In this document: positions 18,942 to 28,451 of the stretch, one piece after another
Position numbering within the stretch: the stretch's first letter is position 1
Layout: every line of letters starts with the position of its first letter
NCBI GenBank assembly: GCA_027023805.1
Contig: JALVUF010000025.1
Coordinates: 1-39,072 of the forward strand
Origin: Helicobacteraceae bacterium
GTDB taxonomy: Bacteria; Campylobacterota; Campylobacteria; Campylobacterales; Sulfurimonadaceae
Length of the DNA stretch: 39,072 nt
Direction of reading: 5' to 3'
Program-made: the position numbers and the translations under genes
Notes under the pieces: model-generated
The model's input: the letters and a program-made list of their open reading frames with translations, nothing else
Told to the model about the DNA's origin: nothing
Database searches by the model: none

Positions 18942-19424
18942 TTATTTTTTTAAAAAAGTAATTCTTTGCGAATGTGTTATGGCAACTGCGATAGCATCGG
19001 TAATATCAAGCGGCTTTATCTCTTTTTTTATATTTAAAAGTCTTTTTACCATAAAAGCGACCTGAGTTTTATCTGCTTTTGCTTTACCCGTTAATGCTCT
19101 TTTTATTTGAAGAGGCGTGTATTCGGCAAAATTTCCAAATTCTTGTATAAGTTTTAGCATCAAAGCTCCACGAAATTGGGCTAATTTTATCACTGTCTTT
19201 GGGTTATGGGCATAAAACATACTCTCAACCGCTACCTCATTTATTTTAAAATTTTTAAACAGCCCCTCAATTCCCTCTGCCATTTGCGGGATTTGAAACT
19301 GCACATCTTCAGCTTTCATCTTAATGAGTCCGGCTTCAACTAAAGCAATTTTATTATTGTGTAACGAGACAATAGCATATCCCATATTTCTTGTACCGGG
19401 ATCTATTCCTAAGATATTTATCAT
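18942..19424 (-). CDS. ruvC: Holliday junction resolvase RuvC
   Basis: RuvC cuts Holliday junctions symmetrically with the RuvAB motor in homologous recombination. The 160-residue protein has the RNase-H-like fold markers: [14 protein letters not shown] with catalytic D8, the [12 protein letters not shown] segment with the catalytic Glu, [18 protein letters not shown], and [13 protein letters not shown] with the C-terminal Asp pair. The start ATG 19424 gives the standard N-terminus; its ribosome-binding site is weak, which fits coupling to the NRAMP gene ending 12 bases upstream. Confidence 0.95.
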
Positions 19425-19436
19425 TTTGCCAGTATA

Positions 19437-20654
19437 TCAAAAAACTGAGGTAACTCCGGCATATACTCCCATTAAGCTTGTAGAAACTACAACGATACCT
19501 ACAACAACTGCATAAAAAGTACTTAATTTATACTCTTTTGGTAATGCTTTTAATGCTAAAAGATATAAAAATCCAAGCACAATCGGTAAAAGTGCTGCAT
19601 TCATAACCTGTACGGCAACACTTAACGTGATAAGGTTTACCCCGGATACAACAACAATCCCACCGATAATTAACACCAAAGTATAAACAATATAAAACCA
19701 AGGAGCCTCTTTTGGATGGTCTTGCAGAGAATGTTTAAAACCGCCAACTTCCCCAAGTCCCCAAGCAGCTGCCAATGAAACAACAACAGCGGCAACAAGT
19801 GATGCTCCAATCAACCCAAGCGAAAATAAAATTATTCCGACTGTTTTACCTAGATATGGAGTTAAAGCATCTGCAATCTGCTGTACCGTATTTAATGATT
19901 GTCCCGGATGATATTTACCAATAGTGGCTGCTGTTGCAACTAAAATAGCTATCATGATAAGCTGTGTTACAACAGCACCTATTGCAGTATCCCATCGTGC
20001 CGCTTTTAAATGTTTTTCACTCAAACCTTTATCTACCACAGCGGATTGATGATAAAAAACCATCCATGGCATAATAACAGCACCAATATTAGCTACTGCT
20101 AAATAAATATATCCATGAGAGCGCCACGGAACTTCTGTTAAACCTTTAATCATAGCTGATACATTTGGGTGAGCCTGCCATGCTACAACTAAAAAAATTA
20201 ATTCAAAAGCACCAAATATTATAGCTATTCTCTCAACAGAGCGATATGAACCAGTCCATGCCATAACTGTCAAAAGCACAACAACAACACTTACACTTAG
20301 CCATGAAGGTATCCCAAAGAGCATACCTGCACCCGCTATACCGGCAAATTCCGTTATTAATGCTCCAATACATGCAACAGCCAAGGTTGACACTGAAAGC
20401 CATGCCCATTTTTGACCAAAATATTTTTTGATCAATTCACCATGACCTTGATTTGTCAATAGTCCAAGTCTAACAGCCAATTCCTGAACCACATAAACGA
20501 TAGGAATTAAAATTATTTGTAAAAGTAGCAGTTTATATCCCCAAACAGCTCCACTTTGTGCAGCCGTTATAACACTTCCGGCATCAGTATCTGCAAACAT
20601 CACAACAATACCGGGACCAAAAACTGCCATATAAGTTAACAATTTTTTATTCAT
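19437..20654 (-). CDS. Divergent NRAMP-family divalent metal transporter
   Basis: This 405-residue inner-membrane protein has about 11 hydrophobic segments and an N-terminus like NRAMP Mn2+/Fe2+ proton symporters (FGPGIVVMFADTDAGSVITAAQSG). The metal-site motif in helix 1, DPGN in canonical MntH, is D24-A-G-S here. In helix 6 the canonical MPH is M195-P-W. The Asp and Met ligands remain, but the Asn and the proton-linked His are changed, so this is a separate NRAMP subgroup and its ion (Mn, Fe, Mg or other) is uncertain. It is the first gene of an apparent operon with ruvC (12 bases on), nrdB and pcm. A Fur-box-like site lies 20-38 bases before ATG 20654, and AGGGA precedes the start. Confidence 0.85.
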   Translation of the reverse strand: MNKKLLTYMAVFGPGIVVMFADTDAGSVITAAQSGAVWGYKLLLLQIILIPIVYVVQELAVRLGLLTNQGHGELIKKYFGQKWAWLSVSTLAVACIGALITEFAGIAGAGMLFGIPSWLSVSVVVVLLTVMAWTGSYRSVERIAIIFGAFELIFLVVAWQAHPNVSAMIKGLTEVPWRSHGYIYLAVANIGAVIMPWMVFYHQSAVVDKGLSEKHLKAARWDTAIGAVVTQLIMIAILVATAATIGKYHPGQSLNTVQQIADALTPYLGKTVGIILFSLGLIGASLVAAVVVSLAAAWGLGEVGGFKHSLQDHPKEAPWFYIVYTLVLIIGGIVVVSGVNLITLSVAVQVMNAALLPIVLGFLYLLALKALPKEYKLSTFYAVVVGIVVVSTSLMGVYAGVTSVF

Positions 20655-20673
20655 TCTTAAATTCCCTATTTTT

Positions 20674-20692
20674 GATAATGATTATTATAATA
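20674..20692 (-). promoter_or_regulatory. Fur-box-like site upstream of the NRAMP gene
   Basis: GATAATGATTATTATAATA agrees with the 19-bp Fur consensus at 15 of 19 positions, including the whole GATAATGAT left half. It sits just upstream of the NRAMP start, where a ferric-uptake-type repressor would block transcription of the NRAMP-ruvC-nrdB-pcm operon. AT-rich sequence raises the chance of a fortuitous match. Confidence 0.55.
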
Positions 20693-20801
20693 TAATTTAT
20701 CTTTGGTTATATATAAACTATTCATCAAATTATATATCTTAAGCCTTATTTTAAGCCAAAATATTATAATGAAAAGCAGATATCATAAAAGGTTATAAAA
20801 T

Positions 20802-22070
20802 ATGATAAATACACAAGAAATTATAGAAGAATTAAAAATAGGATTTCTAGATCAAAATTGTAAAATTTTTTATAGTGATATCGATAAAAAACAAATATTA
20901 TTACATTATAAAGAGTGTATTGATGCCATTTCAAATTTAGATGAGGAAACAGCACTAAAAAAATGTAATTTACTTGCAAAACTTAAACTATTGCAATATA
21001 CCCCTTATACTATAATTTTTAATGAACTTGCCTTTATACAAAGCAAAATCTTAGATTCTTTACTAATTAATGACAATGCTGTGCAGCTACATAATTTTTG
21101 TAAATTATTTAAAAATATAGAAAATCAATTTGCAAAAATATTTTTAACAGAGTATATAAAAGAGCTAAAAAGAAAAAATAATATCAGATTAAGCAGTATT
21201 AATATCTTTAAGGAAAAAAATATTATTAAATACTATGCAGAGCATATTGTCTGGCTAGATAACCTTGCAGATGCGATAGAAAAATCTAATCTCGATATAT
21301 TTCCGATTATAGATCCAAAATTATGTAATTTTGGCAAATGGCTAAATACGAATGCAAAACTTACAATTTCTAATAACAGTCAACATAAAACACTTATACT
21401 TTCACATTTAGCTCTACATAGACTTGCAAATAAAATGCACTCTCTTTTAAAAGATAAAGATACAATTGAATATCTGTCTATATTAAATATGCTTAAAAAA
21501 TGTGAAACCATATCAATGGATATAGGTATAGAACTTTCATTTATAAAAAGTTCTGAATATATACAACAAGCCCATTATGACAAACTTACAAATATGTTAA
21601 ATAGAAACTATCTCGATGATATCTATAGCAGTGTCTTTAAAATGTCAAAAATTACAAATAAACCATTTTGTATATGTATGTGCGATATTGATGATTTTAA
21701 ACATGTAAATGATACTTATGGTCATGACTGCGGCGATGTAGTGCTAAAAACATTCGCAGAGTTTTTAAAAAATATATTTAGAGATTCTGATCATATTATA
21801 AGATACGGCGGAGAAGAGTTTTTAATCATATTTCCTATGACAAAGCTACATAACGCAAAAGCAACCATTGAAAAATGTATAAAAAATCTGGCAAAACTTG
21901 AAATAAAAACAAGAACAGATATCATACATATAACCGTTAGTTTCGGGCTAATAGAGATAAATCCAAATAACTCAGACAGATATGAATTTGATATAGAAAA
22001 TAGTATTCACATGGTTGATAAAAAATTATATGAGGCTAAGCGTAACGGAAAAAACAGAGTTCAAACGTGA
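20802..22070 (+). CDS. Diguanylate cyclase with a CZB-type zinc-binding domain
   Basis: This protein makes c-di-GMP from two GTP. The C-terminal GGDEF domain (about residues 255-422) has the intact active site GGEEF at 336-340, the substrate segment DIDDFKHVNDTYGHDCGD, and an inhibitory I-site RDSD at 327-330 with the usual 5-residue spacing. Ahead of it, about residues 145-210 look like a CZB domain: H148, C175 in LCNFGKWL, H202 and H206. Cys to third ligand is 27 residues and the last two His are 4 apart, as in zinc-regulated E. coli DgcZ (family knowledge). The first 140 residues are unassigned helices. No membrane segment is seen. It is divergent from the NRAMP gene and ends 63 bases before dnaA; AAAGG precedes ATG 20802. 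Confidence 0.85.
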   Translation: MINTQEIIEELKIGFLDQNCKIFYSDIDKKQILLHYKECIDAISNLDEETALKKCNLLAKLKLLQYTPYTIIFNELAFIQSKILDSLLINDNAVQLHNFCKLFKNIENQFAKIFLTEYIKELKRKNNIRLSSINIFKEKNIIKYYAEHIVWLDNLADAIEKSNLDIFPIIDPKLCNFGKWLNTNAKLTISNNSQHKTLILSHLALHRLANKMHSLLKDKDTIEYLSILNMLKKCETISMDIGIELSFIKSSEYIQQAHYDKLTNMLNRNYLDDIYSSVFKMSKITNKPFCICMCDIDDFKHVNDTYGHDCGDVVLKTFAEFLKNIFRDSDHIIRYGGEEFLIIFPMTKLHNAKATIEKCIKNLAKLEIKTRTDIIHITVSFGLIEINPNNSDRYEFDIENSIHMVDKKLYEAKRNGKNRVQT

Positions 22071-22090: not shown

Positions 22091-22122
22091 TTATTCACAT
22101 TACAATTCACTTTCTATTCACG
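22091..22122 (+). other. oriC1: Origin part 1: three DnaA boxes before dnaA
   Basis: TTATTCACA (22091-22099), CAATTCACT (22103-22111) and CTATTCACG (22114-22122) share the TTCAC core of Campylobacterota DnaA boxes. They point the same way and are spaced 12 and 11 bases apart, about one helical turn each. They end 11 bases before dnaA ATG. In Helicobacter pylori the origin is bipartite, with box clusters on both sides of dnaA; this is the upstream cluster, and it may also serve dnaA autoregulation. Confidence 0.8.
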
Positions 22123-22133
22123 CAAGGCAGTAT

Positions 22134-23444
22134 ATGAATATCGGTTATGAAATATTAAACAGATTAAAAGATGAGATTCCAAATATTGAATATAACAGAT
22201 ATATAAAACAGCTCTCATATGATGAAAAGCGCTCATCAAGCGATAGAGCCATATATATTGCACCAAATACTTTGGTAGCAAATTATATTAAAACAAAATA
22301 TTCTGATAAAATAACTCATCTTTTTGAGGTCAAAACATCAAATAAAATAGTTGTTTTGATAACAACAAAAGAAGCAAAAAAAAATATCAAAAAAGTTGAA
22401 CAAAAAAGTATTGATAAAACAAAACACTCTCTTTTAAATCCATCTCACACATTTGATAACTTTGTCGTAGGCGGTTCAAACCAGTTTGCATATGCAGCTG
22501 CAAAAAGTGTAAGTGAAAAACCAGGGGATATATATAATCCTCTTTTTATATATGGCGGCGTGGGAATCGGAAAAACCCATCTTATGCAAGCTGTGGGAAA
22601 TGTTCTTCAAAATCAGGGTAAAGATGTAATATATACCTCTGTTGAACAATTTTTAAATGATTTTTTAAGACATTTAAGAAACGGAAATATGGATAGATTT
22701 AAAGACAAATATAGAAAATGTGACATTTTACTTATTGATGATATCCAGTTTTTAAGTAATAAAGATTCAATACAAGAAGAGTTTTTTCATACATTTGAAG
22801 CTTTAAGAAATGAAAAAAAACAGATAATTATGACTGCCGATAAACAGCCAAAAAAGATAGGCGGTCTTGAAGAAAGACTAAAAAGCCGCTTTGAATGGGG
22901 ACTTATTGCAGATATTCAACCTCCTGAACTTGAAACAAAAATAAATATTATAAAGAAAAAATGTGAAATCAATCGCATAAAATTAAATAATGAAGTAATC
23001 AATTATATAGCAACAATTATAGAAAATAATACACGTGAAATAGAGGGCATTTTATCAAAACTCCATGCTTATTCAAAACTTATGAATATAGATATAACAA
23101 TAGAATTTACTAAAAACGTTTTAAAAGAGCAGATAAGAGAAAACAGATCAAATATAACAATAGATACGATTATAAATATAGTAGCAAAAGAACTTAACGT
23201 AAAGCCTAGTGAGATAAAATCAAAAGGAAGATCAAGAAATATAGTTTATGCAAGGCGCGTTGCTATATATTTGTGTCGTGATCTGACAACAAACTCTACA
23301 ATGCCACAACTTGCACAATATTTTGGAATGAAAGATCATACCGCAATTTCACATACTATGAAAAAAATCAACGAACTTATAAAAAATGATGAAGATTTTA
23401 AGACAAAAATAGACGAATTAACAAATAAAATAACATCTTCTTGA
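22134..23444 (+). CDS. dnaA: Chromosomal replication initiator DnaA
   Basis: DnaA binds oriC, melts it and loads the replicative helicase. Four domains are visible in 436 residues: helicase-interacting domain I (about 1-80), a short linker, and the AAA+ domain with Walker A GGVGIGKT at 141-148 and Walker B ILLIDD at 198-203. The C-terminal box-binding domain carries ARRVAIYLCRDLTTNSTMPQLAQYFGMKDHTAISH. The length is normal for the phylum. ATG 22134 has AAGG upstream. The gene is flanked on both sides by DnaA-box clusters (22091-22122 and 23485-23574), which are likely origin and autoregulatory sites. Confidence 0.98.
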   Translation: MNIGYEILNRLKDEIPNIEYNRYIKQLSYDEKRSSSDRAIYIAPNTLVANYIKTKYSDKITHLFEVKTSNKIVVLITTKEAKKNIKKVEQKSIDKTKHSLLNPSHTFDNFVVGGSNQFAYAAAKSVSEKPGDIYNPLFIYGGVGIGKTHLMQAVGNVLQNQGKDVIYTSVEQFLNDFLRHLRNGNMDRFKDKYRKCDILLIDDIQFLSNKDSIQEEFFHTFEALRNEKKQIIMTADKQPKKIGGLEERLKSRFEWGLIADIQPPELETKINIIKKKCEINRIKLNNEVINYIATIIENNTREIEGILSKLHAYSKLMNIDITIEFTKNVLKEQIRENRSNITIDTIINIVAKELNVKPSEIKSKGRSRNIVYARRVAIYLCRDLTTNSTMPQLAQYFGMKDHTAISHTMKKINELIKNDEDFKTKIDELTNKITSS

Positions 23445-23484
23445 TAAAATTTTGTAAGACAATAAAAAAAAGATATAATATTAA

Positions 23485-23612
23485 TGTGAATAGATGTGAA
23501 TAGTAAATTTAATTTATTCACATACTTTAAATCTCTTACAACAGTAGTAAAGTAGTAGTTTTCACATATTCACCAGTACCTACTACTACATACTAAAATT
23601 TTAAAATATATA
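23485..23612 (+). other. oriC2: Origin part 2: DnaA boxes, DnaA-trio array and unwinding element
   Basis: In the 177-base gap between dnaA and dnaN there are two inverted boxes with reverse complement CTATTCACA (23485-23493, 23495-23503) and a forward TTATTCACA (23514-23522). A close pair of forward TTCAC boxes follows (23558-23566 and 23566-23574). A 5-base spacer (23575-23579) leads into CTACTACTA (23580-23588) and a further CTA at 23593-23595, then the AT-only stretch AAAATTTTAAAATATATA up to the dnaN ribosome-binding site. Box, short spacer, CTA repeats, then AT-rich DNA is the arrangement of the known basal unwinding system (DnaA-trios). Melting is therefore predicted at about 23590-23611. 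A mirror AGTAGTAG (23551-23558) lies on the other side of the paired boxes. Confidence 0.8.
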
Positions 23613-23621
23613 GGAGAAGAC

Positions 23622-24689
23622 ATGAAAATTGTTATAGGCAAATCAATTTTAGAAAATATACTTACATCTTCACAACCATTTTTGGAAAAAAAAGATACTT
23701 CTCAAATAACATCCCATGTTTACTTAAAAGCAAAAAACAATATATTAACAATAAAAGCTACTGATTATGAGATAGGTTTAAAAACAACTACAGATGAAGT
23801 TAAAATAACACATGAAGGTGAAATAACAGCCAATGGTAAAAAAATTTTAGATATTATCAGAATATTAAAAGATGCCGATATTGTTTTAGAGCACAAAAAT
23901 AATCAATTTCACATAACTCAAGCTCATTCAAGTTTTAAACTACCTATTTTTTCATCAAATGAATTTCCAAAATTTCCAGTTTTAGAAGAAGAATCAAAAA
24001 TATCTATTGATTCATACACTTTAATTCACTCCTTAAAACAGATAAGCTCCACAATAGATACAAATAATCCTAAATTTGAATTAAACGGAGCATTAATAGA
24101 TATAAAAGAAAATAATATAAATTTCGTATCAACAGATACTAGAAGACTTGCAATAATTCAATTTAAAAATGAATCAAAAAAAGAATTATCAATCATAATA
24201 CCAAAAAAAGCAATTCTTGAAATTCAAAAACTTTTTTTTGATAATATTGAAATATATTATGATAAAACATATCTTGTAATTCATTCAAAACAATATCTGT
24301 TTTTTACAAAACTAATAAATGGACAATTCCCACAATATGACAGAATAATACCAAAAGAAGTACAATATAATATCTTGCTTCCAAAAACTATAATGATTGA
24401 AGCTATAAAACAAATAACTACAATTTCAAATGATATGAAAATAATTTTTTATAAAGATAGAATTATTTTTGAAAATTTAAGCAATGACAATATAGAAGCA
24501 AAAACAGAGATATTACATGTAACAGAGTTTGACGAACCTTTTACTATAGCAGTAAATAGTAGATATATACTTGATTTTTTAAATAATATTGATTTAAAAG
24601 AATTTACAATAGGACTAAACCAATCAAATCTACCTTTTATATTACAAAGTGGAAATTTTAAAACGATTATAATGCCTATTGTCATTTAA
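23622..24689 (+). CDS. dnaN: DNA polymerase III sliding clamp, beta subunit
   Basis: DnaN dimerises into a ring that tethers the polymerase and repair partners to DNA. The 355-residue protein shows the three-fold repeated clamp domain plan. Typical stretches are VYLKAKNNILTIKATDYEIGL in domain 1, NPKFELNGALIDIKENNINFVSTDTRRLAI in domain 2 and the terminal FKTIIMPIVI (the family ends in a hydrophobic P-I/V tail at the partner pocket). ATG 23622 has AGGAG 5 bases upstream. Its promoter region overlaps the predicted unwinding element. TTACATGTAA occurs at 24513 within a Leu-His-Val triplet. Confidence 0.97.
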   Translation: MKIVIGKSILENILTSSQPFLEKKDTSQITSHVYLKAKNNILTIKATDYEIGLKTTTDEVKITHEGEITANGKKILDIIRILKDADIVLEHKNNQFHITQAHSSFKLPIFSSNEFPKFPVLEEESKISIDSYTLIHSLKQISSTIDTNNPKFELNGALIDIKENNINFVSTDTRRLAIIQFKNESKKELSIIIPKKAILEIQKLFFDNIEIYYDKTYLVIHSKQYLFFTKLINGQFPQYDRIIPKEVQYNILLPKTIMIEAIKQITTISNDMKIIFYKDRIIFENLSNDNIEAKTEILHVTEFDEPFTIAVNSRYILDFLNNIDLKEFTIGLNQSNLPFILQSGNFKTIIMPIVI

Positions 24690-24716: not shown

Positions 24717-27068
<2,352 letters not shown>

Positions 27069-28451
27069 ATGTTATACCCGCAGAAAAAGGAGAGAGAAAA
27101 CAGATTTAAATTGGCTCTAAGGATGGGTCTTCCCATCTTTATTTTAGGTATATTGCTTACTTTTATAAACAGTTCACACTTGACATCCTCTTTTTATATC
27201 AGTTCAATTTTTCTTCTTGGTTTAATGATATATTTTTTCTTATATATGATTTATACAGGTTTTGATGAAAGAACAACAGATTTGGTAACGCACACATTCA
27301 CAAGAGAATATATATATAAATTATTAAAAAAAGAGATTATAAAAAGAGACTACTCTATTATTTTAATTTCAATAGATAATTTAAATACCATAAATACAAG
27401 ATATGGTTTAAAAAATGGAGATTTAGTTCTTTATGAAACTATCTTAAAAATAGATAATATATTATCTTCTAAAAAGATTAAAAATTATCCGATAGGTCAT
27501 CTAAAAGGGGGTGATTTTTTAATAGGATTAGATGGCAAACAAAAAAACTATAATAAAATATTTGAAATAGTATCTGTAAAATTATCAGATTTCAAAGTTA
27601 AAGATATAGAGGTAAAAGTAAATATTTCTATTTTAGACAATAAATTTTCAAAAAATATTGATTATATTATTGATAGACTTTTTCAGCTACAAAAATTAAA
27701 CAAGTCATCAAAAGATATTGTTAAAAATAATGATATAATAGATCAAGAAGATTTGGAAAAGTCAATTATAGAATCTGTTAAGAGAAATGATTTTTTAATA
27801 TTTTCGCAGGCTGTATTTAATAAACAAAATGAAGTAGTTATGTATGATTTATCTATTAGATTAAAAATAGATAACAAAACAATATTCCAAAAAACATATA
27901 TGTCTGTAATTAACAGACTAAATTTATCATATGAATATGATACGACGCTATTAAGTCAGATTGCTTTAAAATTATCAAATAACAGTAGCAAATATTGTTT
28001 TAATATATCTCCTACCACGCTTAGAGATTCGCGTTTTATACCATTTTTTAAAAATATATTTTTAACATATCCAAATATTAAAAAGAGAATTATATTGCTC
28101 ATATATGAGATTGATTTTTATACAAATGTTAAATATTTTAATAAGATTATTCAAAACATAAGAGCTATAGGGGCACTCGTAGTAATAGATAGATTATGTG
28201 AATATCACAGTAGTTTTTTGTATTTAAGAGAGATAGCTGTTGATATGGTTAGATTTGATTCAAAATATAGTAAAAAACTAAATCAATATAGTTATAAAGC
28301 TATATTAAAGGGTGTAAAACTAATTACTGATGAGTTAAATATTATTACATGGATTAAAATGATTGAAAATGAAGAGACTTTTAAACAGATAAAAGATATA
28401 AATATAGATATATTTCAAGGCAGATATTTAGAAGGTATGAAGGAAATATAA
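27069..28451 (+). CDS. Membrane protein with degenerate GGDEF and EAL domains
   Basis: Two transmembrane segments (about residues 14-34 and 41-62) precede a GGDEF-like domain (about 68-205) and an EAL-like domain (about 225-460). The cyclase signature has decayed to GGDFL at 147-151. The EAL triad is YDL at 259-261, and the usual DDFGTG is DRLCEYHSS at 374-382, while the closing IFQGRYLEG (family QGYxxG) survives. Both catalytic sites look dead, so a c-di-GMP-binding or protein-interaction role is more likely than synthesis or breakdown (inference). The ATG abuts the gyrB stop and queF begins one base after its stop, so it is made with gyrase and the queuosine enzyme. Confidence 0.8.

Follow-up and report, generated by a model that had tools for sequence, protein, structure and literature searches.

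Can a replication origin that carries DnaA-trio-like letters on both sides of one pair of DnaA boxes open in either direction, or does the symmetry reflect something else? This question is raised by the gap between dnaA and dnaN in a 39-kb stretch of DNA (39,072 nucleotides, hereafter the window) on a contig of a 1.64-Mb Sulfurimonadaceae (Campylobacterota) genome. Within the gap, AGTAGTAG at 23551-23558 and CTACTACT at 23580-23587 are exact reverse complements 21 bp apart, forming the perfect 8-bp inverted repeat around two boxes that a first-pass annotation of the window had reported. That annotation proposed trio arrays on both sides of the boxes and opening in both directions or, failing this, a repeat that forms a cruciform or controls access to the origin.

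The gap (23445-23621) is flanked by dnaA (22134-23444; Pfam Bac_DnaA, Bac_DnaA_C and DnaA_N) and dnaN (23622-24689, with its ATG at 23622; Pfam DNA_pol3_beta domains), and gyrB (24756-27068; Pfam) follows, all on the forward strand in the order dnaA-dnaN-gyrB. Cumulative GC skew, computed over the 39-kb window only, reaches its minimum at 24427 on a floor that is flat from 21 to 25.5 kb, and TTCAC clusters within the window are densest in the gap and just upstream of dnaA. The gene order, the box clusters and a skew minimum close to the gap all agree with the earlier placement of the origin here, for which GC skew had been named as the check. Three direct-orientation TTCAC boxes found by box search (22094, 22106 and 22117; 22094-22121, forward strand) lie just 5′ of dnaA, and further candidate DnaA sites with the TTCAC core occupy 23486-23573, giving the oriC1-dnaA-oriC2 arrangement known from S. 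denitrificans (PMC5043019). Bipartite origins have been described in the same work for A. butzleri and W. succinogenes. Chromosome replication in this sulfur-oxidising-type bacterium starts at an ordinary bipartite Sulfurimonadaceae origin, and the gap is its oriC2.

Adjacency of ruvC and dnaA has been published for the class (PMC5043019) and is typical, while not strictly defining, for epsilonproteobacterial bipartite origins. In the window, ruvC is not beside dnaA; in the interval 18942-22070, genes for a CZB-GGDEF diguanylate cyclase and an Nramp-type transporter separate the two. A GGDEF-EAL protein is encoded directly 3′ of gyrB (27069-28451), and the dnaA-dnaN-gyrB block is flanked by two cyclic-di-GMP genes.

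Read along the forward strand, the gap carries a promoter-like A-tract and GATATAAT (23463-23479, with TATAAT at 23474-23479), which is near-invariant in relatives, lies upstream of all oriC2 boxes and is likely the dnaN promoter. Two left-facing DnaA boxes come next (GTGAA at 23486-23490 and 23496-23500; 23486-23500 as a pair, oriented to the reverse strand and in near-invariant columns), followed by a third, right-facing TTCAC box (23517-23521) that makes up, together with the second left-facing box, an inverted repeat whose halves co-vary. Comparison with relatives identifies AGTAGTAA-AGTAGTAG (23543-23558) as the left arm of the inverted repeat in its lineage-specific form. To its right are the tandem TTCAC boxes of the unwinding module (23561-23565 and 23569-23573; 23561-23573 together), a 6-bp spacer (23574-23579) whose bases co-vary with the left arm in relatives, and the DnaA-trio array CTACTACTACATACTA (23580-23595), which reads 3′-GAT-GAT-GAT on the bottom strand and is also the right arm of the repeat. 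An A/T-only unwinding region (23594-23612) and a ribosome-binding site, GGAG (23613-23616), follow.

We took as a basal unwinding system at least three trios (3′-NAN-5′, mostly GAT) no more than 16 bp from a DnaA box, the limit that the published definition sets for a trio array (PMC8287927). The right half of the locus has this composition: two TTCAC boxes, the second at 23569-23573, then the 6-bp spacer, CTACTACTA (23580-23588) and AT-only DNA. Relatives retrieved with the window's DnaA, spanning Sulfurimonas, Sulfuricurvum, Sulfurimonadaceae and older “Helicobacteraceae” names, keep this module together with the outward-facing box layout in 150 distinct Sulfurimonadaceae leaders. The distance from the second box to the trios is 80 bp in 115 of the 150 and 79-81 bp in 144, and the A-tract/TATAAT element lies 5′ of all boxes in nearly every leader of the family. 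The middle of the segment between the second box and the trios is variable, mostly with 20-45 inferred substitutions per column. The first nine columns of the trios have 0-7, and the earliest of these have near-zero substitutions across the family. The right half is a standard DnaA-trio unwinding module as judged from its letters, and the annotation had recognized it correctly. A TATAAT promoter-like element was also seen close 5′ of the tandem boxes in leaders from two other Campylobacterota families (L228-L230, L269, L270 and L273), which differ in this from Sulfurimonadaceae, where it precedes all boxes.

S. denitrificans DnaA unwinds oriC2 in vitro (PMC5043019), and by analogy DnaA-driven melting would be expected at oriC2 of the window. 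DnaA bound to the two tandem boxes would extend onto the trio strand, upon which the AT-only DNA would melt and the origin would open rightward.

The left array does not resemble a second module of this kind. On the forward strand there is no GTGA[AT] within 23559-23817, and the nearest box with a left-facing orientation toward AGTAGTAG lies at 23818 rather than within 16 bp to the right of the array. To our knowledge, the DnaA box near a trio array in characterized origins points at the array. Moreover, AGTAGTAG is found only in the window's genome (G000) and in its ~98% sister (G002/WFMO01000185). Six other genus mates lack it and read, for example, TTGGGTTGTTGTTG, with arms such as GGGTTGT or GGGT opposite spacers such as ACAACC. 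Because no box faces AGTAGTAG and the genus mates lack it, we reject this sequence as a mirror trio array, and the proposal of arrays on both sides falls; non-conservation of the left array is an outcome that the annotation had itself named as refuting. A functional mirror array that lets the origin open on either side has the trio-like letters of AGTAGTAG in its favor, but the boxes around which it would work point right only, and DnaA-dependent opening in S. denitrificans was reported solely at oriC2, at the DNA unwinding element (DUE) beside the DUE-proximal box (PMC5043019). We consider two-way unwinding highly improbable. Trio-like letters adjoining DnaA boxes are insufficient by themselves to call a second unwinding array.

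If AGTAGTAG is not an unwinding array, its complementarity to the trios needs another explanation, and comparison across the family provides one. We set coordinate 0 at the first base of CTACTACTA and compared the left segment (-52 to -27) with the spacer and trios (-6 to +16). In predicted structures, 73 of 82 non-redundant leaders form at least five pairs between left arm and spacer or trios, versus 44.3 ± 4.1 (maximum 54) when left segments are shuffled, and an inner stem around the boxes forms in 59 of 82 versus 17.9 ± 4.1. Native arms also pair better than arms swapped between leaders in an alignment anchored on the trios, in which evolutionary events are fewer than sequences. With wobble pairs forbidden, the z score is -8.9 for 113 leaders, -8.4 for 82, -6.8 for 56 and -5.2 for 40 that are less than 55% identical. 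Reversing the arm as a control still gives negative z scores (-4.4 to -2.2), so some phylogenetic inflation remains. Composition-shuffled arms never reproduced the difference between native and swapped arms (0/98 and 0/100).

In an unbiased scan of the leader, 595 pairs of 11-nt windows gave only two strong clusters, one joining -41 to -22 with -11 to +5 (z -6.1), which is the left arm and trio pairing, and another joining -92 to -76 with -65 to -49 (z -5.5), which corresponds to the second and third boxes. Against a tree-based phylogenetic null that preserves substitutions per column (298 simulations), the hairpin region was beaten in 2/298 when folded as mRNA-sense RNA and in 0/298 for the other variants, including Watson-Crick-only pairing and DNA energies, and an X-box3-Y control region gave no signal (z 0.35). 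Composition and the phylogenetic null do not explain the complementarity of the arms, as native arms outperform swapped, shuffled and simulated ones. The comparison thus shows a predicted inverted repeat around the DnaA boxes that the family keeps while its sequence changes, with a left segment some 20-50 bp left of the trios staying complementary to the spacer and first trios. RNAalifold yielded no consensus structure and fixed-column pair covariation is weak, the observed pairing being reached by 51 of 500 shuffles, which indicates that the register drifts. In other Campylobacterota families, 48 non-redundant leaders gave no clear hairpin excess (22/48 versus 19), and arm swaps there, where pairing was very weak, gave z scores of about -2 to -3. 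A candidate pseudoknot built on an AGAGTT/AACTCT helix was rejected; its z score is -5.0 among 113 related sequences, -0.5 among 56 non-redundant ones and 0.35 under the phylogenetic null.

The repeat in the window uses a register that differs from the commonest one in the family. Perfect complements of the trios, 8-11 bp long, turn up again at other registers in L023, L092, L107, L141 and L147, and GTAGTAG is present in 5/91 leaders versus 0.4 expected. Given these complements in other lineages and the different arms of the genus mates, AGTAGTAG is probably one realization of a family habit. TAGG at -38 from the trio is present in 41/91 family leaders and 4/50 other Campylobacterota leaders and is conserved on its own. 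These are the most conserved bases of the left segment and do not follow changes in their partners, and some of the left element may accordingly serve as a protein site or other signal. It could then be argued that the locus combines a conserved TAGG protein site with trio complementarity that arose by chance in one lineage, since an inverted match of at least 8 bp to the spacer or trio appears in about 1% of shuffles of the window's own left segment, a chance that concerns the window alone. The bases flanking TAGG, however, co-vary with the spacer across the family, and we regard this explanation as improbable.

The second scan cluster is a repeat in its own right. The left-facing second box and the right-facing third box (23496-23521) form another family-wide co-varying inverted repeat. 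In all 10 leaders with a base other than A after TCAC of the second box, the third box carries the same base (GG in eight, CC in one and TT in one), while the fourth and fifth boxes often fail to follow. Either pairing or a matching of the two sites to a single DnaA pair may account for this co-variation.

Two co-varying hairpins lying side by side could act in RNA. Transcripts from the A-tract/TATAAT promoter would begin near the first box, and a leader of ~135 nt with two hairpins (second with third box, left arm with trio) could stabilize the mRNA or set dnaN expression. Nearly all leaders have the promoter-like element 5′ of the boxes, and the window's leader folds better than 200 of 200 shuffles (z -3.6). 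The pattern of substitutions nevertheless points elsewhere. Among 21 candidate pairs, Watson-Crick combinations are in excess (739 versus 674 expected), while neither G-U (139 versus 143.6) nor A-C (184 versus 187.5) is, and the trio strand folds no worse than the mRNA-sense one (z -4.0 versus -2.5). As Watson-Crick pairs exceed expectation but wobble pairs do so on neither strand, and as the mRNA sense is not preferred, DNA fits better than leader RNA. Neither arm co-varies with the ribosome-binding site, the leader has no match in Rfam, and it lacks the fixed structure with compensatory pairs and tolerated G-U that marks structured RNA. These results argue, without proving it, against a conventional structured leader RNA, which we consider rather unlikely. 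Some interplay between dnaN transcription and initiation is plausible nonetheless, because the A-tract/TATAAT element precedes all boxes in nearly every leader.

A pairing that acts in DNA could take place in the duplex or on single strands. Cruciform extrusion has an energy cost, and the arms of the window have only modest stability as single-stranded DNA (about -5.6 kcal/mol, z -1.9). With arms this short and loops this long, a true cruciform in duplex DNA is unlikely. The earlier proposal of a cruciform or access control holds in part: the repeat itself matters, as the swap, shuffle, scan and fold counts indicate for a family-wide hairpin-forming repeat with co-evolving arms, but a true cruciform is doubtful on energy. 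With leader RNA and cruciform both disfavored, foldback on exposed single strands is favored.

A process without function might also maintain the complementarity, and this is the main neutral rival to foldback on single-stranded DNA. Template switching during replication at an imperfect palindrome could copy the constrained trio arm into a free left arm, as hairpin upkeep by this route has been documented elsewhere (PMC8794818). The drifting register, the Watson-Crick-only pairing and the perfect 8-11 bp copies of the trios that recur, each specific to its lineage, are all in keeping with such upkeep. It fits less well with pairing kept in 73/82 genomes, with a left TAGG that holds a fixed position in 41/91 leaders with few substitutions, and with similar trios outside the family that have no left copies. 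On balance we think it rather unlikely.

The best explanation, to which we give an even chance, is that the locus holds a single right-opening oriC2 module and that AGTAGTAG is this lineage's left arm of a repeat kept by the family. We read the repeat as a putative family-specific hairpin-forming element of oriC2. That it acts on single-stranded DNA is the mechanism we think most likely among those considered, at somewhat less than an even chance. When the origin opens, or when strands are exposed at the start of replication, the two arms on one strand would fold onto each other as a hairpin whose loop and inner stem hold the DnaA-box pair. Such a hairpin would keep the trio strand from merely pairing again with its partner or, alternatively, would cover the trios until duplex DNA re-forms. 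More tentatively, Sulfurimonadaceae origins may have a second, sequence-fluid control layer, in which it is foldback pairing, and not a fixed motif, that governs whether the origin opens, re-closes or loads its second helicase. The hairpin of this layer would form on exposed single strands, hold the DnaA-box pair of the module and pair with the spacer and trios.

Outside Bacillus, it is an open question how the strands of a melted origin are kept apart and how the second helicase reaches the strand that faces the DnaA-trios. A foldback repeat with co-varying arms overlaps the trio module here, in a family for which in vitro work with S. denitrificans DnaA is established. In the hairpins of ABC-type primosomes (A-sites), a DnaA box lies within the stem of a single-stranded foldback; the foldback proposed for the window would likewise involve DnaA boxes but would place its box pair in the loop. 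In the open-access literature, we found no report that connects trios with a hairpin in these bacteria.

The origins of S. denitrificans and other epsilonproteobacteria (Jaworski et al. 2016, PMC5043019) share with the window a dnaA-dnaN gap with TTCAC-core boxes and a DnaA-trio, box groups arranged tail to tail, an AT-rich DUE by the proximal box and oriC1 upstream of dnaA, but the main text of that report does not mention a trio/left-arm inverted repeat, and ruvC does not adjoin dnaA in the window. The basal unwinding system (Richardson 2019, PMC6669920; Pelliciari 2021, PMC8287927) likewise has tandem boxes, a short spacer, 3′-GAT-5′ trios and AT-rich DNA, whereas in Sulfurimonadaceae a family-wide inverted repeat overlaps the spacer and trios. 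In Bacillus subtilis, the strand opposite the trios also bears a second signal, the DnaD recognition element (PMC10201434), but that signal is a linear single-stranded DNA motif bound by DnaD, while the signal proposed here would be complementarity to a left arm.
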